From Bifidobacterium asteroides (GTDB lineage Bacteria; Actinomycetota; Actinomycetes; Actinomycetales; Bifidobacteriaceae), in contig NZ_CP132384.1 in assembly GCF_030758775.1 (NCBI RefSeq), positions 682,001 through 746,000 of the forward strand: 64,000 bases of DNA. Direction: 5' to 3'. Shown piece after piece: positions 43,208 to 55,073 of the stretch (the stretch's first letter is position 1; each line of letters opens with the position of its first letter). The position numbers and the translations under genes are program-made. The notes beneath the pieces are model-generated. The model saw only the letters and a program-made list of their open reading frames with translations. It ran no database searches and had not been told where the DNA came from.

Positions 43208-44185
43208 ATGGACAAGAACAAGATTTCGACCAACAACCCGGCCACGGTCGTCCTGGCAGGGGGATGTTTCTGGGGCATTGAGCGGTTCTTCCAGGAGGTG
43301 GACGGGATCACCGACACCCAGGTGGGATACGCTCAGTCCACAGTGCCCAACCCCAGCTATGAGCAGGTCTGCAGCGGTGTCACAGACGCCGTGGAAAGCG
43401 TTCGGCTGACCTATGATCCCCAGAGCGTCAGTCTGCGGACCTTGACCCTGCTTCTGCTGGATCTGATCGACCCCTTCTCGGTGGATCGGCAGGGCAACGA
43501 CCGGGGCAGGCAGTATCGCAGCGGCCTCTACTGGGATCCTGAGGATCGCGAGCAGGAGGAGCCCGTCTTCCGCCGCGCCCTGGATGAGCTGGAGCGCAGG
43601 ACCGGCCGTCACCCCGCTGTGCAGGTGGAAGCCCTGATCAACTTCTACCCGGCGGAGGAGTCCCACCAGGACTATCTGCTCAAGAACCCCGGCGGATACT
43701 GCCACATCCCTCTGGAGGCCATCGCCAACGCCGCCTCCCGCCAGCGCTATATCGAGCGCATCTGGTCCCTGGACCCTGAAAGCTACGAGGTCACCCAGCA
43801 CTCGGCCACCGAGAGGCCTTTCGCCAACGCCTACGACGGGGAGTTCCGTCCGGGCATCTATGTGGACGTGGTCAGCGGACAGCCGCTCTTCTCCTCGGCG
43901 GACAAGTACGACTCGGGCTGCGGCTGGCCGGCATTCACCAAGCCCATCGATCCCGACCTGCTGGTCAACCGCAAGGACTACAAGCTGCTGGGCCGGCCCC
44001 GGATTGAGGTGCGGACGGCACAGACCGGCATCCATCTGGGACACGTCTTCGACGACGGCCCTGCTGACCGTGGCGGGCAGCGCTACTGCATGAACTCCGC
44101 CGCCCTGCGGTTCGTGCCGCGGGACCGGATGGAGGAGGAGGGCTACGGGGACTACCTGCCCCTGGTAGACCAAGTTAGCCGTTGA
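43208..44185 (+). CDS. msrAB: Fused methionine sulfoxide reductase MsrA-MsrB
   Basis: Bifunctional repair enzyme of 325 aa. The MsrA domain (about residues 12-170) has the catalytic GGCFWGIERFF and reduces the S-epimer of methionine sulfoxide. The MsrB domain (about 185-315) reduces the R-epimer; its catalytic Cys lies in RYCMNSAALRF. The zinc-site CxxC pairs typical of many MsrB forms are absent: only SGCGWPAF is seen. Cytosolic, no signal peptide. GAGGAAT precedes the start. It stands alone between azlC (divergent) and asnB, and may belong to the oxidative stress response. Confidence 0.95.
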   Translation: MDKNKISTNNPATVVLAGGCFWGIERFFQEVDGITDTQVGYAQSTVPNPSYEQVCSGVTDAVESVRLTYDPQSVSLRTLTLLLLDLIDPFSVDRQGNDRGRQYRSGLYWDPEDREQEEPVFRRALDELERRTGRHPAVQVEALINFYPAEESHQDYLLKNPGGYCHIPLEAIANAASRQRYIERIWSLDPESYEVTQHSATERPFANAYDGEFRPGIYVDVVSGQPLFSSADKYDSGCGWPAFTKPIDPDLLVNRKDYKLLGRPRIEVRTAQTGIHLGHVFDDGPADRGGQRYCMNSAALRFVPRDRMEEEGYGDYLPLVDQVSR

Positions 44186-44325
44186 CCGTTCTGCCTCCAG
44201 TGACACGCCGGAGCTTCTCACCCATGGGGTTCCGGCGTAGTCCACATATAAGTGAGGCCCGTCTGTTCCCTGTTGCCCTTTTAGGCTATTGTGGACTGCT
44301 GGTGGATTGATAAGGAGTCATGCCA

Positions 44326-46215
44326 ATGTGCGGAATTGCTGGGTTCGTCAACGACACCTCTACCGAGGAAAAAACGGCCGTGCTCAAGCGGATGACGGAT
44401 ATCATCGCCCACCGAGGCCCCGACAACGAGGGGCATTTCGTTGATGGGCGGGTGGCCCTGGGCTTTCGGCGCCTGAGCATCATCGACCTGCAGGGCGGCG
44501 ACCAGCCCATCTTCAACGAGGACTCCTCCATGGCCATCACCATGAACGGGGAGATCTACAACTACCGTGAACTGCGCCGCCAGCTGATCGACCTGGGGCA
44601 CACCTTCTCCACCGAGTCCGACACCGAGGTCATCCTGCACGGCTACGAGCAGTGGGGTCACGAAGTGGTCAACCGCCTGCGCGGCATGTTCGCCTTCGTC
44701 ATCTGGGACCGGGGACGCGGCGAGCTGTTCGGGGCTCGGGACCACTTCGGCATCAAGCCCTTCTATTACGCCCGGATGGGCGGCACCTTCATGTATGCCT
44801 CGGAGATCAAGAGCCTCCTGCAGCATCCGGACTTCCACAAGGAGCTCAATACCCAGGCCCTGCGTCCCTACATGACCTTCCAGTACCCGGCGCTTCCGGA
44901 GACCTTCTTCAAGGGGGTATTCAAGCTTCCCGAGGGCCATTGGTTCACCTTCCGGGACGGGAAGATGGACATCCACCAGTATTATGACCCGGCCTTTGGG
45001 GAGAGCAAGCAGGATCTGAAGGACCTGGTCGACTCCATCGACCAGACCGTCCAGGATTCGGTCAAGGCCCACCAGGTGGCCGATGTGGAGGTGGGCTCCT
45101 TCCTCTCCTCCGGGGTGGACTCCAGCTATGTCGCAGCCCTGGCACGCCCCCGGCACACCTATTCGATAGGCTTCGGCAAGGGGACCTACAACGAGTCCGA
45201 CCAGGCTGGCGAGCTGGCCTCCATACTCAAGCTCAACAACACCACCGAGTCCCTGGACGGCGACCAGGCCTTCAGCTATTTCCCGCAGATTCAGTGGTAT
45301 ATGGACGAACCTGACTCCAATCCCTCCTGCGTGCCGCTCTTCTTCCTTTCCGAGCTGGCCAGCCGGGACCTGCGCGTGGTCTTGAGCGGGGAGGGCGCCG
45401 ACGAGCTCTTCGCAGGCTACGTAGACTACGGCGTGCACACGCGCTCGCGCATCATCAAGGATGTCACCCGTCTCCTGGGCCGTCTGCCCCGCAAGGCCCG
45501 GTATGCCATCGGACGCTGGGCCAAGGGCAAGCACTTCCACGGGGCCTGGCACCTCTACGCCAACCTGGCCCCCGCCGAGGAGAGCTTCATCGGCCAGGCC
45601 AAGGTCTTCGACGAGGACGAGGCCGGCAGGCTGCTCAAGCCGGCCTACCGCAAGGCTCCCCGTGTCTGTGAGATCACTGGGCGAATCTATGCCCGGCTCA
45701 AGGGGCGCAGCCTGTCCGAGCTCAAGAAGAAGCAGTACCTGGACATGCATCAGTGGATGCCCGGGGACATCCTGCTCAAGGCCGACAAGATGACCATGGC
45801 CCACTCCCTGGAGCTGCGGGTGCCCCTGCTGGACCGCAAGCTGATGGATGTGGCCGAGAAGGTGCCTACCAAATATCTGATCACTGATCAGAACACCAAG
45901 TTCGCCTTCCGCAAGGCTGCCGACCGCCATATTCCCCGGGAGTGGTCCGCCAGGGAGAAGCTGGGCTTCCCCGTGCCCATCAGGGACTGGCTGCATCAGG
46001 AGCGTTACTACCGGCTGGTCCGCAGCATGTTCGAGCAGGACTGGGTGTCCGAGTTCTTCGACCAGGAGGCCCTGCTGCGCATGCTGGACGACAACTACGC
46101 CAAGCGCAACGACGCCCGCCGCAAGATCTGGACCGTCTACTCCTTCCTGACCTGGTATGACGTCTACTTCATCCACGACGGAACCAAGCCGGAGCTTCAA
46201 GATCTCGGAAAATAA
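44326..46215 (+). CDS. asnB: Asparagine synthetase, glutamine-hydrolysing
   Basis: Class II amidotransferase of 629 aa making asparagine from aspartate, glutamine and ATP. The start MCGIAGFV puts the nucleophile Cys directly after Met; the ATG at 44326 lies 8 nt after AAGGAG, while the ATG at 44320 is too close. The glutaminase domain (1-200) has HRGPDNEG, the TMNGEIYNYRELR strand and SDTEVILHGYE. The synthetase domain has the PP-loop SFLSSGVDSSYVA (about 262-274) and VLSGEGADELFAGY. An asnB-like amidotransferase modifying the cell wall is possible, but the sequence reads as a full AsnB. Single gene. Confidence 0.93.
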   Translation: MCGIAGFVNDTSTEEKTAVLKRMTDIIAHRGPDNEGHFVDGRVALGFRRLSIIDLQGGDQPIFNEDSSMAITMNGEIYNYRELRRQLIDLGHTFSTESDTEVILHGYEQWGHEVVNRLRGMFAFVIWDRGRGELFGARDHFGIKPFYYARMGGTFMYASEIKSLLQHPDFHKELNTQALRPYMTFQYPALPETFFKGVFKLPEGHWFTFRDGKMDIHQYYDPAFGESKQDLKDLVDSIDQTVQDSVKAHQVADVEVGSFLSSGVDSSYVAALARPRHTYSIGFGKGTYNESDQAGELASILKLNNTTESLDGDQAFSYFPQIQWYMDEPDSNPSCVPLFFLSELASRDLRVVLSGEGADELFAGYVDYGVHTRSRIIKDVTRLLGRLPRKARYAIGRWAKGKHFHGAWHLYANLAPAEESFIGQAKVFDEDEAGRLLKPAYRKAPRVCEITGRIYARLKGRSLSELKKKQYLDMHQWMPGDILLKADKMTMAHSLELRVPLLDRKLMDVAEKVPTKYLITDQNTKFAFRKAADRHIPREWSAREKLGFPVPIRDWLHQERYYRLVRSMFEQDWVSEFFDQEALLRMLDDNYAKRNDARRKIWTVYSFLTWYDVYFIHDGTKPELQDLGK

Positions 46216-46265
46216 CGCGGTACCCTTGAAACAGCTTCACAGAGCTGGATAAGGGGGTACCCTCC

Positions 46266-47225
46266 ATGGCTTTACGCCCTGATGTTGCCAGAAGCAGGAT
46301 GGCGGATGCCGCCGAACTCTATTGGGTGCACGGCATGAAAGTTGCAGCCGTGGCAAGAGAGCTTGATGTGTCCACGTCAACTGTCTCGCGTCTGCTGTCT
46401 GAGGCGAAACGTCGCCACATCATCGAGTTCACCGTCAATCGTCAGGAGGACTCGGCGCTCGAGCTGAGGCATCATCTTGAGGAGGAGTTCCATATCCATG
46501 CAGTTGTTGTGGGTACTGGTGAGATATTGGATGCTACCAGGCGGAGGGTTGCCGTAGGAGATGCCGCTCAATCGCAGATTTGGAAGATGGTCAATTCCGA
46601 TACGGTCATCGGGGTGGCGTGGGGCCGAACTATAGAATCTCTCTCCCTTCAGCTGATACCCAAGCATCTATCGGGTGTTGAGATTCTGCAGCTTCATGGT
46701 TTCGGGAATACACTTTCCTTCGGGGAAAATTATTTTACCCAGATCCTCACTCGCTTTGGCACCGCATATGACGCTCAAGTTCATTTGTTCCCCGCCCCTG
46801 CCATCTTCGATTCCAGTGAAACTCGTGAGATGATGTGGAAGGAGACCAGCATTCGTCAGATGCTGGAATTGCGGCGTTCCTTGGATCTGATCATAACCTC
46901 TGTCGGCACTCCGTATGGGGCCACGCCCAGCCCCTTGTTTAGTCCGGGAGTGCTGTCCCGTCATGATCGAGAAGAGCTTAAACGTGAGCATGTAGTGGGG
47001 GATGTGACCTCCACCTTCTACCGCAGCGACGGCAGCATGCGTGATTTGGCCATCAATAAAAGGTCGACCGGGCTGAGCCGAGAGGAATTGCTCAGGGTGC
47101 CGACTCGTCTGTTCATCGTAGCCGATGAAAACAAGGTTCAAGCCTTGACTACGGCTCTTAATGCCGGCTTGGTTACTCACCTGGTCATCGACCAGACGAC
47201 GGCAGCACATCTGGTCCGGCAGTAG
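46266..47225 (+). CDS. SorC-family transcriptional regulator
   Basis: Regulator of 319 aa. Residues about 12-60 contain a helix-turn-helix (AAELYWVHGMKVAAVARELDVSTSTVSRLLSEAKRR). The rest is the SorC sugar-binding domain, with VGDAAQSQIWKMV, VIGVAWGRTIESL and ITSVGTPYG resembling the phosphosugar isomerase fold. Such proteins sense sugar phosphates and repress or activate catabolic operons. It lies upstream of, and co-oriented with, the kinase/epimerase/PdxA/GntP cluster, and 384 bp with several inverted repeats separate it from that cluster. So it is the likely local controller, with a tetrose or triose phosphate as plausible effector. GGGGGTACC precedes the ATG; the ribosome site is weak. 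Confidence 0.87.
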   Translation: MALRPDVARSRMADAAELYWVHGMKVAAVARELDVSTSTVSRLLSEAKRRHIIEFTVNRQEDSALELRHHLEEEFHIHAVVVGTGEILDATRRRVAVGDAAQSQIWKMVNSDTVIGVAWGRTIESLSLQLIPKHLSGVEILQLHGFGNTLSFGENYFTQILTRFGTAYDAQVHLFPAPAIFDSSETREMMWKETSIRQMLELRRSLDLIITSVGTPYGATPSPLFSPGVLSRHDREELKREHVVGDVTSTFYRSDGSMRDLAINKRSTGLSREELLRVPTRLFIVADENKVQALTTALNAGLVTHLVIDQTTAAHLVRQ

Positions 47226-47609
47226 GCGATAGTTCTCCACGCACAAATACAGACGTGCATCGCGGCATGGTCTGAATTGTGGTGGATTTTATAGACTGAT
47301 CAACCTGTTCTTTGCAGGACTATGCCCAAATGCTTGGCTGTTTATACAGCATCTTGTTTCATTTATCCGATACCAATAAATACCTGATAAATGAAAATAT
47401 TCCCACAAATATCAGGTATATCATGCTGAATATCACCATTAATGCATAAAGCATTCGCTTTTGATGGGTATTTTTGCTATCACTGAAAGTACCGCAAGGG
47501 ATGGCGATGTCCTGAAGCGGATCTCAAAAAACAGAAGAGCCCAGTGTCATGCTCCTGGGCTCACCAACTTTGCGGGTGAAGAGCTCGAGGACAGAGAGGA
47601 CTGCGCACG
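47226..47609. promoter_or_regulatory. Regulatory region, 384 bp, between SorC gene and kinase gene
   Basis: AT-rich and full of repeats. CATTTATC (47362-47369) pairs with GATAAATG (47388-47395). ATACCTGATA (47382-47391) pairs perfectly with TATCAGGTAT (47410-47419). AATGC-ataaa-GCATT (47441-47455) is followed by CGCTTTT and may end the SorC transcript. GAGCCCAG (47537-47544) pairs with CTGGGCTC (47555-47562), just before the kinase gene. The first two sets are candidate SorC operators; the last may affect the mRNA leader. Confidence 0.6.
47382..47419. promoter_or_regulatory. Perfect 10-bp inverted repeat, candidate SorC operator
   Basis: ATACCTGATA and TATCAGGTAT are separated by 18 bp. A second pair (CATTTATC/GATAAATG) overlaps its left arm. 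Large AT-rich arms with a wide spacer fit tetrameric SorC regulators. Position about 190 bp upstream of the kinase gene fits control of that operon. Confidence 0.5.
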
Positions 47610-49376
47610 ATGGCGTGTCGGATTGATGATGTCGGTGAATTCGCAACGGAATCGATCAGAGGATTCGTCCAGGCCAATCCTGGGTATGTCAAGGCATGCC
47701 CGGGTGGCGTGATTCGTTCTACACGCTCCAGGAATGATCAGGTTGCGCTGGTAATCGGCGGAGGCATGGGGCACTATCCGGCATTCGCGGGACTCGTGGG
47801 GCCGGGCATGGCTCATGCGGCCGTGCAGGGCAATATTTTCGCATCTCCATCCGCCAGGCAGGTTGTTGACGTTTGCCGTCGAGCCGATCAAGGGCGAGGC
47901 ATAATCCTCATCTTCGGCAACTACGAGGGGGATCGGTTGAATTTCAACCAGGCTGCACGCACGCTTCGTGCCGAGGGCCATGATGTGCGAGTTCTGCCGG
48001 TTACTGATGATCTGTATTCCGCCCCTCCGGATCGAATTCAGGAACGCCGAGGCATAGCGGGTGATATGGCGGTTTTCAAAATCGCCGGAGCCGCCTGTGC
48101 GGCCGGAATGGACCTGGATTCTGTGGAAGCCTTGGCTATACGTGCTAATGCTTGCACACGCAGCTTGGGTGTGGCATTTTCCGGATGCACGCTGCCCGGG
48201 TCGGACAAACCACTGTTCAGTGTCCCTGAAGGCCGTATGTCGCTAGGGCTCGGCATTCATGGGGAGCCTGGAATCGGTCAAACAGATCGGCCTACTATCG
48301 ATGGTTTGGCGGATCTGCTGGTCCGACGCCTCATGGATGAAAGACCCGAGGACCGTCAAATGCATGGGGCGCATGTGGCTCCCATTCTTAACGGCTTGGG
48401 CGCTCTTAAGTCTGATGAGCTCTTTGCTGTATACGATGCTGTCCAACGACGTCTGTCACAGCTGGGTCTGCGATTGATCCAACCTCTGGTGGGGGAGTTT
48501 TGCACCAGTTTTGATATGAGCGGATTGTCGCTTTCCTTGTGCTGGCTGGATGAGGATTTGGAGCCCCTTTGGTGTGCTTCCGCAGAGACGCCGGCTTTGC
48601 ATTTGGGTAATCATGTAGATTCCAGCCAGACGGATATAGATGCCCAAGTGTCCGCGCAGGAGGACGGTCCGACCGAAAAAGAAGAGCAGGCCACCCCGGA
48701 GTCAAAACAGGCTGCTCAAATCTTGGCCAGAATCATGCAGACTGTGATGCAATGCGTTAACGACAACGTGGATTATCTGGGACGAATAGATGCGGTGGCG
48801 GGTGACGGGGATCATGGACTCGGCATGCAGCGCGGTGCTGAAGCAGCGGCAAAAGCTGCAGATGAAGCAATAGCAACTGGGTCCGGTTGCCGAACTGCAT
48901 TGAAGCAAGCGGCTGAAGCCTGGGCCGATAAGGCAGGCGGCACGTCAGGAGCGCTCTGGGGTGAATTGCTGACATCCCTGGCAGGTCATCTCTCCGATTC
49001 ATCGAGACCTGGGAAGGAGGAGATTGCAGAGGGCTGGCGCGACGCTGACAAGCAGCTTATGGAGTTTGGCGGGGCGAAACCGGGAGACAAGACCATGATC
49101 GATGCCGTGCATCCTTTCGTGCAAGCTTTTGCCAGCGGCGGGGATTCGCTGGCAAATACTTGGAGCCACGCTGCAGAAGCTGCTCGCCATGGGGCTGAGG
49201 AGACAGCCGATATGCTGCCCAAGAAGGGTCGCGCGAAAGCCCATGGCAGCAAGGATCTGGGTACCCCAGACCCAGGAGCGGTCTCATTCGCCATGATTGT
49301 CCAAGCCGTAAGTCCCGTACTGAACGATTTGGCCAGCCAAGAACAGTGCAATGCCGACAAGGTGGTGCTCTCATGA
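47610..49376 (+). CDS. DhaK-DhaL fusion kinase, probable tetrulose/dihydroxyacetone kinase
   Basis: Fusion kinase of 588 aa using ATP. The DhaK domain (about 1-335) holds the substrate pocket: GGGMGHYPAF (about 51-60) and the His217 in GLGIHGEPG that binds the ketose carbonyl covalently. The DhaL domain (about 365-585) binds ADP-Mg through DAVAGDGDHGLGM (about 394-406). The GHYP variant, in place of GHEP of plain dihydroxyacetone kinases, resembles erythrulose kinases (DerK/LerK) as I recall them. It is first in the cluster. Its stop overlaps the next gene (ATGA). Substrate could be dihydroxyacetone, erythrulose or another short ketose. Confidence 0.85.
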   Translation: MACRIDDVGEFATESIRGFVQANPGYVKACPGGVIRSTRSRNDQVALVIGGGMGHYPAFAGLVGPGMAHAAVQGNIFASPSARQVVDVCRRADQGRGIILIFGNYEGDRLNFNQAARTLRAEGHDVRVLPVTDDLYSAPPDRIQERRGIAGDMAVFKIAGAACAAGMDLDSVEALAIRANACTRSLGVAFSGCTLPGSDKPLFSVPEGRMSLGLGIHGEPGIGQTDRPTIDGLADLLVRRLMDERPEDRQMHGAHVAPILNGLGALKSDELFAVYDAVQRRLSQLGLRLIQPLVGEFCTSFDMSGLSLSLCWLDEDLEPLWCASAETPALHLGNHVDSSQTDIDAQVSAQEDGPTEKEEQATPESKQAAQILARIMQTVMQCVNDNVDYLGRIDAVAGDGDHGLGMQRGAEAAAKAADEAIATGSGCRTALKQAAEAWADKAGGTSGALWGELLTSLAGHLSDSSRPGKEEIAEGWRDADKQLMEFGGAKPGDKTMIDAVHPFVQAFASGGDSLANTWSHAAEAARHGAEETADMLPKKGRAKAHGSKDLGTPDPGAVSFAMIVQAVSPVLNDLASQEQCNADKVVLS

Positions 49377-50302
49377 GTGCGGCCGTGACCGATAAGCCAG
49401 TGATTGCCACCTGCCTGAATGGAGCGCCTCTGCAAGGAGCGGATGGTAGATCGATGACCAAGGCCGACCCAAGCGATTGGGCCAAGATTTTCACAGCGAT
49501 AGCAGGCGCCGGTTTCCATTACGCCGAACTGTCGGATGCCTGGATCAGGCCGGCGGATATGACTCCTGCAAGGAGGCATGAATTGGTGGAGACTGCACAC
49601 AGCTGCGGGGTTGAATTGCCCTCCTTGCATGTGCAGCGCGCCAGCGTCATTCAGCCGGGAATCGGGCAGAACAATCTGGCCTATGCGCACGCCAGCATTG
49701 ACGCTGCGGCGGAGATGGGTATGAAAGTCTTTTCAACCGGACTGCATCAGCCCCTGAACTCCTCACAGCGCAAGGCCTTTTGGTTCTGGCTGGGACAGGG
49801 TCCGGTGGATCCGCCTGACGACCCTGAGCGCTGGCAGACCGCGGTACGCAGAATCAGAGAGCTGGGCCGGCATGCTAATGACGCAGGAATGGTCATGTCT
49901 TTGGAGATGTACGAGGACACCTATCTGGGTCGCGCTGACTCCGCCGTCCGTTTCGTATCCGAGGTAGGCCTGCCCAACGTGGGTCTCAATCCAGACGTGG
50001 GCAACCTGGTCCGCCTGCACCGGCGGATCGATGATTGGCGCGAAACCTATCGGAAGACGCTTCCATATGCGGTTTACTGGCATCTGAAGAACTACCAGCG
50101 CGACGAAGCCCCTGACGGTTCCTGGCATGTTGCTATACCCACAACCTTGCGTGACGGCATCATCGATTACCGTTGGGCGGTCCATTATGCCCAAAGCTGC
50201 GGGTACCAGGGCATGTTCATCTGTGAGCACTACGGAGGCGATGTTCTATCCGTCTGCGCTCACAACGCTGAATACCTGCAGAAACTGCTTTCCCGGCCGT
50301 GA
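49373..50302 (+). CDS. TIM-barrel sugar phosphate isomerase/epimerase
   Basis: Enzyme of 309 aa in the xylose-isomerase-like (AP endonuclease 2) family. Metal ligands are visible in order: Glu in SLEMYEDTYLG (about 184), Asp in LNPDVGNLV (about 217), His in YWHLKNY (about 241) and Glu in FICEHYGGD (about 283). These bind one divalent metal for a ketose epimerisation or isomerisation. Relatives in tetritol pathways include EryC. The start ATG overlaps the stop of the kinase gene (ATGA), so translation is coupled. The exact reaction in this cluster is unknown; 3-epimerisation of a tetrulose phosphate is one option. Confidence 0.85.
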   Translation: MSAAVTDKPVIATCLNGAPLQGADGRSMTKADPSDWAKIFTAIAGAGFHYAELSDAWIRPADMTPARRHELVETAHSCGVELPSLHVQRASVIQPGIGQNNLAYAHASIDAAAEMGMKVFSTGLHQPLNSSQRKAFWFWLGQGPVDPPDDPERWQTAVRRIRELGRHANDAGMVMSLEMYEDTYLGRADSAVRFVSEVGLPNVGLNPDVGNLVRLHRRIDDWRETYRKTLPYAVYWHLKNYQRDEAPDGSWHVAIPTTLRDGIIDYRWAVHYAQSCGYQGMFICEHYGGDVLSVCAHNAEYLQKLLSRP

Positions 50303-50376
50303 CCTTCGAAACGATGAACCAATCGGTCAAAGATTTGGGGAAATAAACCAACACCATATCCAACAAAGGAGTACAT

Positions 50377-51372
50377 ATGAGTGCAAATGCATCAACAAAA
50401 CCACGTATTGCCATGACGTTCGGCGATCCGGCCGGCATCGGCCCTGAACTTGGCGTCAGGTTGCTCGCTGATCCCAAAAACCGCAAGTCCGCTGACATCT
50501 ATGTTTTGGCTGACAGGGTTGAGGTGGAGTCCGCGGCCGAGAAAGCCGGTCTGGAAGTCCCCATTGCTGATCAGCCTAATGATGATGCGGTAGCCGTTCT
50601 CGACGATCATTCGCTACCTGAAACCGCTATCCCCATCAAGCAAACGTCCAAGGAAGCCGGCGAGCGCGCACTGCATCAGCTCAGTCGCGGACTGGATCTA
50701 GCGCGAGACGGCAAAATCGAAGCCATGGTCTTCATGCCGTTGAACAAGACCAGCCTGCACCTGGGCGGCATGAACGAGCTCGACGAGCTCCGTTGGTTTG
50801 CCAAGAAATTGGACTTCGATGGATTTACGAGTGAAATCAATATCATTCCAGGATTGTGGACTTCAAGGGTGACCAGTCATATGGGACTCAAGGACGTGCC
50901 GGGCCGTATCACCAAGGATGGTGTGGTCAGCGCTATCACTCTGCTGCACAACTTGTTGCATGACTCGGGCATAGCGGAACCCCGCCTTGGGGTTTGCGCT
51001 TTGAACCCCCATAATGGCGAGAACGGCATTTTTGGCCGCGAGGAGATTGATATCATTCGTCCTGGTATCGAGCAGGCGCGGCAGGCCGGCATTAACGTGG
51101 AGGGAACCTATTCGGCTGACACCATATTTATTGGTGCCAAGGACCGGTATGACGGTGTCGTGACGATGTACCACGATCAGGGCCAGATCGCTATAAAGCT
51201 GATGGGCTTTGACGGTGGAGTCACTGTCCAAGGCGGTCTTCCTGTCTTCATAGATACGCCTGCTCATGGAACGGCATTCGATCTGGTTGGAAAGAACAAG
51301 GCCAACATCACTTCAAGCCAGAATGCCTTCAACATTGCCTGCGCTATCGGATCAAGCAGGGTCAATCGCTGA
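50377..51372 (+). CDS. PdxA2-like 4-phospho-D-threonate/erythronate dehydrogenase
   Basis: NAD-dependent dehydrogenase of 331 aa in the PdxA family. Landmarks are TFGDPAGIGPELG at the N-terminus, two metal-binding His (THMGL- and NPHNGENG-type segments, near residues 168 and 210), the MYHDQGQIAIKLM loop (about 264) and TPAHGTAFDLVGK near the end. PdxA proper acts in vitamin B6 synthesis, but no pdxJ or other B6 gene is nearby. PdxA2 proteins oxidise 4-phospho-D-threonate or -erythronate; the product decarboxylates to dihydroxyacetone phosphate. With a GntP permease directly downstream, that catabolic role is preferred. AAAGGAG precedes the start. Confidence 0.88.
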   Translation: MSANASTKPRIAMTFGDPAGIGPELGVRLLADPKNRKSADIYVLADRVEVESAAEKAGLEVPIADQPNDDAVAVLDDHSLPETAIPIKQTSKEAGERALHQLSRGLDLARDGKIEAMVFMPLNKTSLHLGGMNELDELRWFAKKLDFDGFTSEINIIPGLWTSRVTSHMGLKDVPGRITKDGVVSAITLLHNLLHDSGIAEPRLGVCALNPHNGENGIFGREEIDIIRPGIEQARQAGINVEGTYSADTIFIGAKDRYDGVVTMYHDQGQIAIKLMGFDGGVTVQGGLPVFIDTPAHGTAFDLVGKNKANITSSQNAFNIACAIGSSRVNR

Positions 51373-51442
51373 TCGTCAAGATCTTACCGACGGTCAGGTG
51401 AAGAGGATCGACAACGGAAGTCATCCATTTGCCTGACTGTTC

Positions 51443-51482
51443 GACGTGCCCCGGCATCCTCTTGATTTCGGGGCCGTCTTTT
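51443..51482 (+). terminator. Terminator-like hairpin between the PdxA2-like gene and gntP
   Basis: GCCCCG (51448-51453) pairs with CGGGGC (51469-51474) and outer GAC with GTC, followed by TTTTGG. It lies 26 bp before the permease start codon. It may reduce transcription into the permease gene or be an mRNA processing signal. Confidence 0.4.
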
Positions 51483-51508
51483 GGTCATACATTCAAGGAA
51501 AGAGTGTC

Positions 51509-52852
51509 ATGCTTCCAGTTCTCAGCGGCATTGCCGCCATCATTGTTTTAATAGTTCTGATTGTGTACTGCAAACTGCATCCCTTTGTGGCGCTCATCAT
51601 CTCATCTTTGGGCCTTGGTTTGGTCAATGGCCTGGGCACGGAGAAGACCGTCAAATCCTTTACTACGGGGTTCGGTTCTCAGCTGTCCACCACCGGTATC
51701 GTGATAGGTTTGGGAGCCATCATCGGTGGGATGCTCGTCAGCAGCGGCGGAGCCGAACGCATAGCCAACGTGATCGTGGGCAAGAGCAAGAAGGCTTTGA
51801 TCCCTCTTGCTGTGGGTTTGGTGGCTTTGATCATCGAATTGCCCAATTTGTTTGAGGTCACCTTCGTGCTCCTCATTCCAATTGTGTTCTCTGTGGCTAA
51901 GAGGACTCATACCAGTGCGCTTTACGTAGCCATTCCTATGGCCGCCGGTATGATGACCGCCCATGGTCTGCTTCCTCCCGGCCCTGCAACCGTCATCGGT
52001 GCAGGTGCAATCGGAGTGGATCTCGGGTTGGTTTCCATGATCGGCATCGTAATCTGCATTCCTGTGTTCGCGGCCGGTGTCTGGCTGTTCCCCAAGCTCA
52101 TGCAACGGTACTACCTTCGTTATCAGGTAAGTGATGGCTCTGAGTACGCCACCAAGGACGACGACCTGGCACAGGCTCCCGGCATAGTCAAATCACTGCC
52201 TTCGGTATTGCTGGCTCCGGTTCTGCTGATCATCGGCACCATTGGCAAGGCGGTCTTCTCCAAGGGCTCCGTCGGTTATGTGATTACGCAATTCTTTGGC
52301 AATACAGTGGTCGCCTTGCTCCTGTCGGCCTTGTACGCGCTGATCTTCCTGGGGCTCGGCTCGGGTATGACCGCCAAGAAGACGTTGAGTCAGAGCAAGA
52401 CCAGTCTCAAAGGTGTGGTCAATGTTCTGCTGATCATTGGCGCAGGCGGTGGCCTTAAGGAAATGCTGCAGAGCACTGGTCTGAGCGATCAAATAGCGAC
52501 AACCACAGCCAAGTGGGCCATTCCCACCGTTCTGCTGGCTTGGCTTATCGCTGCGCTCTTCCGTGTCGCTCTTGGGTCTGGCACGGTCGCTGTGGCTGCT
52601 GCGGCGGGCATCGTGGCTCCCATGGTCGCACAAGCAGATGATTTGCATAAGGCACTGGCTGTGTTAGCCATCGCCGTAGGCGCGATGATCTTCTCTCATG
52701 TAAATGACGGCGCCTTCTGGCTCTTCCAGGAGTATCTGGACATGACCGTTCCTCAGACGCTGAAGACATGGAGCTTCCTGGTGACTGTCCAATCGGTGGT
52801 AGGTCTGATTGCTCTGTTGCTGGTGGATGCCGTCATAGGCGTTGTGGTATAG
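51509..52852 (+). CDS. GntP-family sugar-acid permease
   Basis: Inner-membrane proton symporter of 447 aa from the ATG at 51509, the normal size for the family. About 12-13 hydrophobic segments. Landmarks are KLHPFVALIISSLGLGLVNG at the start, GLGAIIGGMLVSSGGAERIA (about 71-90) and the late FRVALGSGTVAVAAAAGI and HVNDGAFWLFQEYL (about 400-413). Family members carry gluconate, idonate and shorter sugar acids such as threonate. Placed between a PdxA2-like dehydrogenase and an RpiB-like isomerase, it probably imports the substrate of this cluster. An upstream start at 51446 is possible but lacks a ribosome site. Confidence 0.88.
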   Translation: MLPVLSGIAAIIVLIVLIVYCKLHPFVALIISSLGLGLVNGLGTEKTVKSFTTGFGSQLSTTGIVIGLGAIIGGMLVSSGGAERIANVIVGKSKKALIPLAVGLVALIIELPNLFEVTFVLLIPIVFSVAKRTHTSALYVAIPMAAGMMTAHGLLPPGPATVIGAGAIGVDLGLVSMIGIVICIPVFAAGVWLFPKLMQRYYLRYQVSDGSEYATKDDDLAQAPGIVKSLPSVLLAPVLLIIGTIGKAVFSKGSVGYVITQFFGNTVVALLLSALYALIFLGLGSGMTAKKTLSQSKTSLKGVVNVLLIIGAGGGLKEMLQSTGLSDQIATTTAKWAIPTVLLAWLIAALFRVALGSGTVAVAAAAGIVAPMVAQADDLHKALAVLAIAVGAMIFSHVNDGAFWLFQEYLDMTVPQTLKTWSFLVTVQSVVGLIALLLVDAVIGVVV

Positions 52853-52903
52853 GCCGCTAGCCCGCTAGGTCGATATTCGAGATTCAAGGAAAGGTGAAAG
52901 ATA

Positions 52904-53344
52904 ATGAGACTGGCGTTTGGAGCCGATCCTAATGCTGCAGGGTTGAAGAATGTGCTCATGGAGGAGGCAAGACGTCTAGGTCACGAGGTGATCGATTTTC
53001 CTACCGATGATCCGATCTACGCCAACGTGGCCATCGCCCTTGCGCAGTCTGTGGTTAGGGGCGAAGCGGATCGAGGAGTCCTGCTTTGCGGGACGGGTCT
53101 AGGCGTTTCGATCTCGGCCAATAAAGTGCCGGGAGCCTATTGCGCTTGCGTATCGGACATATATCAAGCCGAGCGTGCCCGCCGCAGCAATGATGCGAAC
53201 ATCATCGCCATGGGAGCTCAGGTTCTGGGGCCCGAAACAGCCAAATCCCTGTTAAGGGCCTATCTGGACAGTGAGTTCGATCCTGATTCCAGAAGCGGCC
53301 CGAAGGTGGCGCGCATCCGCGAATTTGAGCTTCATCAGCAATGA
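52904..53344 (+). CDS. RpiB/LacAB-family isomerase, likely tetrose-phosphate (EryI/DerI-like)
   Basis: Isomerase of 146 aa with the RpiB/LacA/LacB fold. The core LLCGTGLGVSISANKVPG (about 60-77) keeps the catalytic Cys62 and the GTG anion loop. But the N-terminal Asp-His of RpiB (DHxG) reads ADPNAAG (Asp8-Pro9), and the later HNDAN reads SNDAN (Ser95), so both landmark histidines of ribose-5-phosphate isomerase are gone. A substrate such as D-erythrulose 4-phosphate, interconverted with erythrose 4-phosphate, would not need ring opening. It is followed by a TPI-like gene, the same pair as eryI-eryH. AAAGG precedes the start. Confidence 0.85.
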   Translation: MRLAFGADPNAAGLKNVLMEEARRLGHEVIDFPTDDPIYANVAIALAQSVVRGEADRGVLLCGTGLGVSISANKVPGAYCACVSDIYQAERARRSNDANIIAMGAQVLGPETAKSLLRAYLDSEFDPDSRSGPKVARIREFELHQQ

Positions 53345-53394
53345 TGAATCCGTGGGCAGCAGATAGTCAATTTTAATAGCGCAGAGTGGGGAAG

Positions 53395-54171
53395 ATGAAC
53401 AAGCCGATTGTAGCTATAAGCCTGAAAATGTATTTTACAAGAAAACAGACACTGGCATATTGTCGACGATTAGCCGATCTTCTCAATGCCGCAGCCCTTC
53501 CACAGGACAAGGTGACGATGGCGGTTTTGCCGGATTACCTTACGGTGGAGCAGGCTGGGCAGGCCCTGCTGTCCACGGATGTTCATCTTGGTATTCAGGA
53601 TGTATGCGATCAAGATCGTGGCCCGTTTACTGGAGAGGTCTCGCCCCGGGATGCTTTTGATCTGGGTGTGACCGTGGCCGAAGTGGGTCATGAGGAACGC
53701 CGTCGCCTGTATGGGGAAGATGATGAACTCATCGGGCGGAAGGTTCGTGCATGCTGGCGCAATGGATTGACACCCCTGCTGTGTGTGGGTGAGCTTAGCA
53801 ACCACGGCCCTGAGGCAGCCGCTGAATATTGCTTAAAACAGATCGAAATGGGGCTGGGTGAGAAGCCTGACCTTCCAGCCTGGATCGCATATGAACCCGT
53901 CTGGGCCGTCGGAGCTTCCCGCCCCGCTCCAGTTGAATACGTCCAAGAGGTATGTTCGATTATCAAAAACAAGCTTGGCCCCCAATGCCACAATTTGTCG
54001 CTCATATATGGAGGGGCTGCTGCTCCGGGATTGTTGACTGAGCTATGGCCAACTGTCGATGGGGTCTTTCTAGGCCGTTTCGCGCATGATCCCGCTGCTT
54101 TCATGGAAGTCGTGAAAGAGGCCTGGCGCCTGATCAGCCAGGACTCGGAGGTCCAGAACGGTCAGAGTTGA
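53395..54171 (+). CDS. TPI-like isomerase, diverged (EryH/LerI-like)
   Basis: Triosephosphate-isomerase-like TIM barrel, 258 aa from the ATG at 53395 (a GTG at 53386 is an alternative). Catalytic Lys is in SLKMYF, where classical TPI has NWKMN-like sequence; catalytic His in EVGHEERR (classical VGHSERR); catalytic Glu in AYEPVWAVG. The phosphate loops differ: YGGAAAPG for YGGSV and FLGRFA for VGGASL. These changes suggest a four-carbon substrate, for example L-erythrulose 1-phosphate isomerised to D-erythrulose 4-phosphate. A normal TPI role for dihydroxyacetone phosphate cannot be ruled out. Last gene of the cluster; its stop overlaps the infC promoter. Confidence 0.85.
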   Translation: MNKPIVAISLKMYFTRKQTLAYCRRLADLLNAAALPQDKVTMAVLPDYLTVEQAGQALLSTDVHLGIQDVCDQDRGPFTGEVSPRDAFDLGVTVAEVGHEERRRLYGEDDELIGRKVRACWRNGLTPLLCVGELSNHGPEAAAEYCLKQIEMGLGEKPDLPAWIAYEPVWAVGASRPAPVEYVQEVCSIIKNKLGPQCHNLSLIYGGAAAPGLLTELWPTVDGVFLGRFAHDPAAFMEVVKEAWRLISQDSEVQNGQS

Positions 54172-54196
54172 CCGCTTATCGGCATTGTGCTAGTAT
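54168..54196 (+). promoter_or_regulatory. Promoter of infC-rpmI-rplT
   Basis: TTGACC (54168-54173), 17-bp spacer, TAGTAT (54191-54196). The -35 box overlaps the stop codon of the TPI-like gene. The distance to the infC start leaves a leader of about 200 nt. Confidence 0.65.
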
Positions 54197-54202
54197 ATCC
54201 AA

Positions 54203-54404
54203 CGGCTTGAGCAATCAAGAAAGCGGGTGACCCACCTGGAAGTCTCTCATGACTTCGGGTTCGAGGAGTGGCGATATTCTGTTGTATTCTACAGAATCGC
54301 CCATGAACGCGGAAGCGCGTCGTTTACAGCGATGGTCTTTTCGTCTGGACTCATGTGGATCGGCTGCAGGCAGTGGATGTTGTGGTATTTGAGAAGGAGT
54401 CATC
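54203..54404 (+). promoter_or_regulatory. Structured mRNA leader of the infC operon
   Basis: About 200 nt without an ORF of note. Three hairpins are visible: GAAGTC-tctcat-GACTTC (54239-54256); GGCG(at)ATTCTGT pairing with ACAGAATCGCC (54270-54301); and ACGCG-gaag-CGCGT (54307-54320). A leader of this kind is known in other bacteria to bind L20 or respond to IF3 and control the operon. That role here is inferred. Confidence 0.5.
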
Positions 54405-55073
54405 ATTAGCGACGAACCAAGGATTAACGACGATATACGAGTGTCTCAGGTACGCCTGATCGGGCCCAACGGCGAGCAGGTGGGAATCATTGCGACCTCC
54501 GTCGCCCTCAACCTGGCCAAGGAGGCCAACCTTGACCTGGTCGAGGTTGCGCCCAAGGCCAAGCCTCCGGTCGCCAAGCTCATTGATTACGGCAAGTTCA
54601 AATACAACGAGAAGATCAAGGCTCGTGAGGCCCGCCGCAATCAGAGCATGTCGGAGATCAAGGAGATCCGCTTCAGGTTGAAGATCGACGACCACGACTT
54701 CGAGGTCAAGGAGGGGCACGTGCGCCGCTTCCTGTCCGCCGGAGACAAGGTCAAGGTCACCATCATGCTGCGTGGGCGCGAGCAGTCCCGGCCCATCGGC
54801 GGCGTGGAGCTCCTGCGCAAGCTGGCTGACGACGTCGCGGATCTGGGCTCCATCGAGTTTGCCCCCAAGCAGGAGGGGCGCAACATCATCATGACCCTGT
54901 CGCCCAAGGGCAAGAAGGTCCACACCCAGTCCGAGCAGCGTCGGCGGGGCGGCCAGGCCCGTGCCGAGCGCAAGGCCCGTCAGGCGGCCCATCTGGCTGC
55001 CAAGGCCGACAACAATACTTCTCCCAAGCAGATGAAATCCAAGGAGGGCAGCAATGCCGAAGATGAAAAGTAA
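54405..55073 (+). CDS. infC: Translation initiation factor IF-3, AUU start codon
   Basis: IF-3 of 222 aa, which binds the 30S subunit, checks the initiator codon and prevents subunit joining. The N-terminal [26 protein letters not shown] is complete only if translation begins at ATT 54405, 5 nt after AAGGAG (54394-54399). A GTG at 54441 would cut 12 conserved residues. A rare AUU start is a hallmark of infC and allows self-regulation, because IF-3 rejects such codons. The linker and C-domain ([24 protein letters not shown]) are intact, followed by a lysine-rich tail. Upstream gene of rpmI; the reading frames overlap by 20 bp. Confidence 0.95.

Follow-up and report, generated by a model that had tools for sequence, protein, structure and literature searches.

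What does a bifidobacterium do with a gene run that puts a dihydroxyacetone-kinase-like enzyme, relatives of two sugar-phosphate isomerases, a PdxA-family dehydrogenase and a sugar-acid permease next to a single regulator? The question is raised by positions 46266-54171 of the 64,000-nucleotide stretch of the Bifidobacterium asteroides genome analysed here (contig NZ_CP132384.1, positions 682,001 to 746,000; hereafter the window). It holds seven open reading frames, all on the + strand, whose Pfam matches bear out the families named for them in an initial annotation made from the letters alone: a SorC-type regulator, a fused DhaK-DhaL kinase (DhaKL), an AP_endonuc_2 TIM barrel, a PdxA-type dehydrogenase, a GntP permease, an RpiB-like isomerase and a triosephosphate isomerase (TPI)-like one. 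Our answer, which we consider probable, is that they form a SorC-controlled catabolic operon by which a sugar acid would be turned into erythrulose and then into erythrose 4-phosphate. The cluster would thus combine a known ending, from erythrulose to erythrose 4-phosphate, with a front end that we could not match to a described pathway.

Kinase and isomerases

The kinase (47610..49376, + strand; Dak1 344 bits, Dak2 167 bits), predicted to be an erythrulose 1-kinase of the LerK type, scores 686 bits with the PRK14479 model (cut-off 492) and 377 bits with the glycerone kinase model, whose cut-off of 575 is not reached. In a tree with inferred erythrulose-context labels it falls in a set of 23 rows from erythrulose-type clusters, with E. 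coli DhaK and 30 other DhaKs opposite (support 100/99) and an unlabelled genome kinase (o_L205) at the base of the erythrulose side. Kinases of this set adjoin alcohol dehydrogenases in Arthrobacter and a PGDH_C dehydrogenase in Pantoea and Erwinia.

The TPI-like isomerase (53386..54171, +; Pfam TIM 174 bits) belongs by tree position to 33 cluster-type proteins that a 100/99 branch splits from 32 housekeeping ones, long branches being flagged, and a smaller tree places rhizobial EryH (EryH_Rj) on the cluster side, again at 100/99. The Asn of the NWK motif (Asn11) is kept in 32/32 housekeeping rows and is Ser in 33/33 cluster rows; EryH, read by eye, also has SWK, and the catalytic Lys, His and Glu persist in the cluster TPIs (Glu unaligned in one row). 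The RpiB-like isomerase (52904..53344, +; Pfam LacAB_rpiB 135 bits) likewise stands with the cluster RpiBs and apart from actinobacterial RpiB (99/94, with unsettled bootstrap and long branches), and with EryI included the window and cluster RpiBs group with it (98/94). His99 is found in all 30 housekeeping rows and is Ser in all 51 cluster and EryI rows, the window's included, and His10 is found in the same 30 and in none of the 51. His99 is presumably the ring-opening residue and a tetrose 4-phosphate cannot form the usual ring, so its loss suits such a substrate. Every second cluster row entered the TPI and RpiB trees and every third the DhaKL and HAD-type TIM trees; the smaller trees took one TPI cluster row in three and one RpiB cluster row in four, with part of the housekeeping rows. 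Rows of the TPI, RpiB and DhaKL trees were length-filtered, L019 and L029 being omitted as duplicates, as were the cluster rows of the RpiB residue count, from whose housekeeping set L161, which has TPI and DhaK genes close by, was omitted.

Outside the cluster the genome encodes another TPI and an RpiA, which can cover housekeeping, the window protein being its sole RpiB; together with the trees and residues, these two led us to reject a housekeeping role for both isomerases. The kinase and both isomerases are, by sequence comparison, set apart from housekeeping enzymes. Since trees and active-site residues group the isomerases with EryH and EryI, a predicted ending from erythrulose to erythrose 4-phosphate is well supported. 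The initial annotation had assigned the pair to the EryH/EryI (LerI/DerI) kind, and the trees agree; in the family trees that it named as a possible refutation, neither does the kinase fall with plain DhaK nor do the isomerases fall with housekeeping RpiB and TPI. According to passages of PMC10733421, LerI and DerI lead from L-erythrulose 1-phosphate to erythrose 4-phosphate, EltD and LerK acting before them, and passages of PMC5992420 describe EryH as TpiA2-like and EryI as RpiB-like. In the sets compared here, the changes of the NWK Asn and of RpiB His99 to Ser provide simple sequence marks for erythrulose-type isomerases.

The PdxA-family enzyme and the imported acid

The PdxA-like protein (50377..51372, +; Pfam PdxA 266 bits), predicted to be an NAD-dependent dehydrogenase/decarboxylase of an unphosphorylated sugar acid, keeps the metal ligands H166/H211/H266 and K274 (E. 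coli numbering) and has E, L, T and I in place of H136, T137, N283 and R292. These four residues, which we take from the PdxA annotation to be substrate or phosphate contacts, are retained in PdxA and PdxA2, with GHT at 135-137, Asn at 283 and Arg at 292. The change runs through the relatives: Asp-Glu occupies 135-136 in 22/22 rows, position 137 is Leu, Met, Ile, Ser or His and never Thr in the same 22, and all 20 readable rows have Thr for N283 and one of Ile, Val and Leu for R292 (the 22 include the window and its near copies L019 and G136, and two of them end before the C-terminal motif). The protein matched seven NCBIfam PdxA models but reached the cut-off of none of them, the D-threonate-4-phosphate dehydrogenase model giving 175 bits against a cut-off of 583, and its structure model (pLDDT 82, from 12 sequences) has as nearest folds PdxA and then the TphB-type dehydrogenase/decarboxylases. 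It had been called a PdxA2-like dehydrogenase; the PdxA family stands, PdxA2 does not. Also lost is the proposed entry of a tetronate at dihydroxyacetone phosphate by way of PdxA2, which we rejected on the replaced residues and on the missing DUF1537 kinase (0 PF07005 matches in the whole genome, a control profile matching in 3/14 genomes). A role in vitamin B6 synthesis was rejected too: this is the only PdxA in the genome, yet its substrate residues are missing and its operon is a catabolic one.

An acid permease of the GntP family (51446..52852, +, with an ATG start present at 51509; Pfam GntP 401 bits; TIGR00791 367 bits, cut-off 293), a PdxA without its phosphate contacts and a ketose kinase together suggest that oxidation comes first and phosphorylation later. 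PdxA chemistry releases C1 as CO2, so a C4 ketose left after oxidation and CO2 loss would need a C5 acid, and a C5 rather than a C4 substrate is therefore more likely. L-xylonate or L-lyxonate would give L-erythrulose by such chemistry, which is only a suggestion; passages of PMC11276620 name both, and L-erythrulose, among the breakdown products of vitamin C. Relatives of the window PdxA (45-48% identity, with the same Asp-Glu motif) lie beside proteins annotated L-rhamnonate dehydratase and near transporters at L115 7998-10195 and L116 6639-9005, a hint that this subfamily has further substrates among the unphosphorylated sugar acids.

Proposed pathway

Taken together, these features would fit the following course. 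The GntP permease would import a sugar acid, most likely a C5 one (a pentonate or branched C5 acid), whose C3 hydroxyl the PdxA-family enzyme would oxidise with NAD+ and without prior phosphorylation; the resulting beta-keto acid would be decarboxylated to erythrulose, either by PdxA itself or by the TIM barrel; DhaKL would make erythrulose 1-phosphate; from L-erythrulose 1-phosphate the TPI-like enzyme would form D-erythrulose 4-phosphate, which the RpiB-like enzyme would turn into D-erythrose 4-phosphate, and this would enter the bifid (phosphoketolase-transaldolase) shunt. A phosphoketolase is present in the genome, and the entry into the shunt that the initial annotation had foreseen is thus possible. 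A bifidobacterial phosphoketolase acts in vitro on D- and L-erythrulose, according to part of PMC10547157, so a leak of unphosphorylated erythrulose into acetyl phosphate is conceivable.

In its full form the proposal is a tentative one, to which we give slightly less than even weight: an undescribed route for an unphosphorylated C5 acid (e.g., a D-pentonate, or an L-pentonate such as the L-xylonate or L-lyxonate formed in vitamin C breakdown), running from acid to 3-oxo acid, erythrulose and erythrose 4-phosphate through enzymes of two new kinds, a PdxA subfamily and a TIM-barrel enzyme, common to soil actinobacteria, to rhizobia and to a few bifidobacteria, and leading in the last directly into the shunt as erythrose 4-phosphate. 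That the route is undescribed, as first supposed, is possible; a literature search that did not take in the full apiose and Zhang 2016 work found no description of the gene combination. If true, it would give the bifid shunt, normally fed by fructose 6-phosphate and pentoses, an entry for acid sugars, and would provide a function for the PdxA subfamily and for a TIM-barrel family found in many actinobacteria and rhizobia.

The same module in other bacteria

The initial annotation held that the two halves of the cluster, the acid-oxidising and the erythrulose-type one, are not normally found together, which proved wrong. A profile scan with the TIM barrel confirmed at least 556 stretches, of which the best 80, all with actinobacterial titles, were kept, and front ends were counted over all 80 (matches to PdxA, DhaKL, SDR, MFS and GntP below 33% identity being ignored). 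DhaKL, RpiB and TPI occur in the same fetched stretch in 51/80, and PdxA in 14/80; 12 of these 14, two of them from Bifidobacteriaceae, also hold DhaKL, RpiB and TPI, so the pairing is a recurring gene set. The PdxA-bearing genera are Agromyces, Microbacterium, Agrococcus, Glycomyces, Microlunatus, two Bifidobacteriaceae and, with PdxA farther from the TIM barrel, Brevibacterium. TIM barrel and PdxA are adjacent in 8 of the 14; PdxA lies about 3 kb away in L034 and L033, and about 5-8 kb away, with its own regulator and transporter, in the Brevibacterium loci (L067, L068, L071, L081). A TctC-like binding protein is found in 10 of the 14 (TctC, TctB and TctA by Pfam), an EamA permease taking its place in the two Microlunatus loci (L021, L037), and in rhizobia the order is GntR-PdxA-TctCBA-TIM-DhaKL. 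In the bifidobacteria the usual transporter and GntR have given way to a GntP permease and a SorC regulator.

Across the 80 loci the front end is 3HCDH-like in 60, PdxA in 13, both in one, SDR only in four and neither in two. The commoner, second front end (61/80; e.g., L004 11106-19341) joins the TIM barrel to a 3HCDH-like dehydrogenase, in most cases accompanied by an SDR and an MFS permease. The back end keeps other company as well. In Arthrobacter (L109) the neighbours of the DhaKL/RpiB/TPI trio are a sugar ABC transporter and two alcohol dehydrogenases; in Pantoea and Erwinia the trio lies with a SorC-type regulator, another TIM barrel and a PGDH_C dehydrogenase (by Pfam in Pantoea, the Erwinia protein being 95% identical); and TPI and RpiB are also seen beside PGDH_C, a DUF1537 kinase and a RuBisCO-like gene annotated rbcL. 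In all three of these contexts the intermediate to be expected is, we presume, erythrulose or a phosphate of it.

Three smaller observations may be added. Two Salinibacterium loci (L022, L023) combine an SDR, the TIM barrel, an apparent ABC transporter and a PF04199 'cyclase' (a Pfam result for L022 only) with the same DhaKL, RpiB and TPI. An Agrococcus locus (L090 14122-15944) has a free-standing Dak2-domain protein and a GlpX-type phosphatase after its transporter genes. In Curtobacterium (e.g., L062, L085, L086, L091) DhaKL and TPI lie beside the TIM barrel, a module that is a candidate for the use of erythrulose or erythrose in this genus, from which isolates have come out of L-erythrulose and D-erythrose enrichments, their transporters and kinases being unknown according to part of PMC12780249.

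The TIM barrel

The TIM barrel (49373..50302, +; Pfam AP_endonuc_2 88 bits) has as sole near relative the solved structure 5tnv, to which the records consulted assign no function, and this holds for phmmer, profile, hhalign and fold searches alike; an assignment by homology accordingly failed. Its probable metal ligands E177, D207, H236 and E284 (numbering of the first alignment row) are invariant in 33 sequences, and the nearest folds after 5tnv include the isomerase Art22 and many ketose 3-epimerases. The other TIM barrel of Pantoea and Erwinia has the LExYE and EH motifs and the metal ligands in common with it and shows no significant sequence similarity to it. The TIM tree, which gave no substrate, is not sorted cleanly by front end: the PdxA label changes nine times, at least five of them forced, the front ends having been exchanged repeatedly. 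We slightly prefer a 3-oxo-acid decarboxylase, which could serve both PdxA and 3HCDH front ends, to an EryC-like D/L 3-epimerase of erythrulose or its phosphate.

Alternative routes and points against the proposal

Several points weigh against a sugar acid-to-erythrose 4-phosphate operon as drawn above. The enzymes are predicted ones throughout, and the chemistry of every step, the assignment of the acid to C5 and the part played by the TIM barrel are what we infer from gene families, the recurring set, the kinase and isomerase subfamilies and the altered PdxA pocket, which are what comparison itself indicates. No lactonase or sugar dehydrogenase gene that might point to the starting acid is present in the window cluster, and the 10 flanking proteins of five PdxA-type loci (L020, L021, L031, L037, L090) include no lactonase and one aldo/keto reductase (L021). 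DhaKL, RpiB and TPI were not found in the two Microlunatus PdxA stretches, and neither RpiB nor TPI was seen in the rhizobial ones. The kinase tree depends on presumed context labels, and the RpiB-like protein stays below the cut-off of the NCBIfam DerI model (NF051858; 143 against 240 bits). The TIM barrel is not usefully similar in sequence to any of EryC, OtnI and its Pantoea/Erwinia counterpart, and it is not needed as a decarboxylase if PdxA decarboxylates alone, as its relatives do. One related strain, finally, has let most of the cluster decay and kept RpiB and TPI whole.

The place of the TIM barrel is also where an alternative presses most, though we consider it rather unlikely: PdxA alone would make D-erythrulose from a D-pentonate, the kinase would give D-erythrulose 1-phosphate and the TIM barrel would epimerise this to L-erythrulose 1-phosphate, so that TIM, TPI and RpiB would repeat the EryC, EryH and EryI series of Brucella and Rhizobium. 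The rhizobial erythritol-type locus does have an annotated TIM barrel protein with TPI and RpiB, which by its position we take to be EryC, and the fold neighbours named above, Art22 and the ketose 3-epimerases, speak for an epimerase, as does the association of the TIM barrel with several front ends, by which it may belong to the back end. It has no significant sequence similarity to rhizobial EryC, however, and the Arthrobacter trio with its alcohol dehydrogenases has no TIM barrel in the 14 listed features of L109, which ties the TIM barrel to acids rather than to erythrulose itself. The series would nonetheless have a precedent in EryC, EryH and EryI, which act one after the other (in the relevant part of PMC5992420), EryC being a D-erythrulose 1-phosphate 3-epimerase (in that of PMC10733421).

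A shorter course, in which the PdxA-like enzyme would oxidise and decarboxylate threonate or erythronate to dihydroxyacetone, DhaKL would phosphorylate this and the TPI-like enzyme would yield glyceraldehyde 3-phosphate, seems very unlikely: the GntP-like YgbN, 32% identical to the window permease, belongs to an E. coli operon annotated for threonate catabolism, and a PdxA relative (47.5% identity) lies beside an annotated threonate operon (L113), but the kinase and TPI fall in erythrulose-type clades with the NWK Asn changed, an RpiB of the DerI/EryI type would stand idle, the genome has another TPI, and the canonical route lacks its DUF1537 kinase. We find it very improbable that the substrate is D-apionate, with PdxA replacing a PGDH_C (ApnO-like) enzyme and the TIM barrel acting as a 3-oxo-isoapionate decarboxylase to give L-erythrulose. 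The Pantoea and Erwinia clusters, which join DhaKL, TPI, RpiB, a SorC-type regulator and a TIM barrel with the shared LExYE and EH motifs to a PGDH_C protein, would favour it, and such a protein also occurs in the locus with the rbcL-annotated gene; yet none is found among the seven cluster proteins, the two TIM barrels have no significant sequence similarity, and D-apionate has a tertiary C3, which rules out a C3 oxidation of the PdxA type.

The sugar acid-to-erythrose 4-phosphate route that we prefer resembles several known systems in its parts. Threitol and erythritol pathways with LerK, LerI and DerI were reportedly described in Mycobacterium smegmatis by Huang in 2015, and the Arthrobacter trio with its two alcohol dehydrogenases looks much like them; they start from polyols by way of dehydrogenases, whereas the window cluster has an acid permease, PdxA and the TIM barrel instead. 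The Brucella/Rhizobium erythritol pathway (EryA-EryD, EryH, EryI) has isomerases of the same type, a SorC-type regulator and a TIM barrel gene; the rhizobial locus (L241) differs in its FGGY kinase and glycerol-3-phosphate-dehydrogenase-like gene, with no adjacent PdxA, DhaKL or GntP, and neither an FGGY kinase nor a GlpD-like dehydrogenase is found by Pfam among the seven window proteins. The D-apiose and D-apionate pathways, said to have been worked out by Carter in 2018, lead from the acid to L-erythrulose, free or phosphorylated, and end in the same way, with TPI- and RpiB-like isomerases that yield erythrose 4-phosphate; they use a PGDH_C dehydrogenase, which we take to be ApnO, or a RuBisCO-like protein with DUF1537, and not PdxA. 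Among the PdxA relatives, PdxA and PdxA2 (4-phosphohydroxythreonine and D-threonate-4-phosphate dehydrogenases) have the same fold and metal histidines and a likely shared C3 oxidation and decarboxylation, and differ in the four contact residues and in the NCBIfam cut-offs. TphB, the terephthalate dihydrodiol dehydrogenase/decarboxylase, is by its structure titles a relative of the same fold and acts on an unphosphorylated acid, though an aromatic precursor, and has 25-27% identity to the window protein in the structural match. The Carter 2018 work on D-apiose is cited in the part of PMC6302742 consulted.

Layout and distribution in Bifidobacteriaceae

The SorC-family sugar-binding regulator gene (46266..47225, +; Pfam Sugar-bind 174 bits) is followed by a 384-bp intergenic promoter/operator region (47226..47609) and then by the other six genes, of which DhaKL and the TIM barrel are joined by an ATGA overlap at 49373-49376, the remaining gaps being 41-74 bp, so that the six look like one operon behind this region. 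The regulator has 24% identity to the SorC-type regulator of the rhizobial erythritol-type locus and 21-22% to those of Pantoea and Erwinia. A scan of the intergenic region found no sigma-70-like promoter before the kinase. An inverted repeat in it, ATACCTGATA (47380-47389) and TATCAGGTAT (47410-47419), is a weak candidate for a SorC operator; read by eye from the alignment, its arms have one substitution in all in G145 and one per arm in G136.

The host genome is a single contig of 2.08 Mb, and the cluster, flanked on one side by an asparagine-synthase-like gene and on the other by infC (names that we give by resemblance), has a G+C of 54.9% against 63.6% and 64.5% on its flanks, which fits acquisition from elsewhere. 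The nearest named record found is Bifidobacterium mizhiense S053-2, with cluster proteins 98-100% identical. The TIM barrel matches in 10/189 genomes of the family at E <= 0.001: four matches are strong and full-length, one is a 61-residue fragment and five are weak and partial. The strong ones are the genome itself, two of the same genus and a Bifidobacteriaceae metagenome-assembled genome of another genus (G163), and all three of the others carry the seven genes in this order (in G163 at 52-74% identity). A search of other Bifidobacteriaceae for the same gene set, which the initial annotation had proposed, thus found it, and the conserved order makes the set more than chance.

Within the genus the cluster is intact in 3/27 genomes and decayed in one. 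In the latter (G150; L018, 6700-15365), at the same site, SorC, DhaKL and GntP are in pieces, the TIM barrel is a fragment and PdxA was not found at E 1e-5, whereas RpiB and TPI are 100% and 98% identical to those of the window. At the infC site of the 27 genomes, the TPI/RpiB end of the cluster adjoins infC in four (G150 among them), an asparagine synthase gene in six, an msrAB-like gene in 16 and, in the stretch read, none of these in one; by this patchy presence the cluster is an accessory island, open to both gain and loss. The whole interval between the msrAB-like gene and infC (43208-55073) is variable across the genus.

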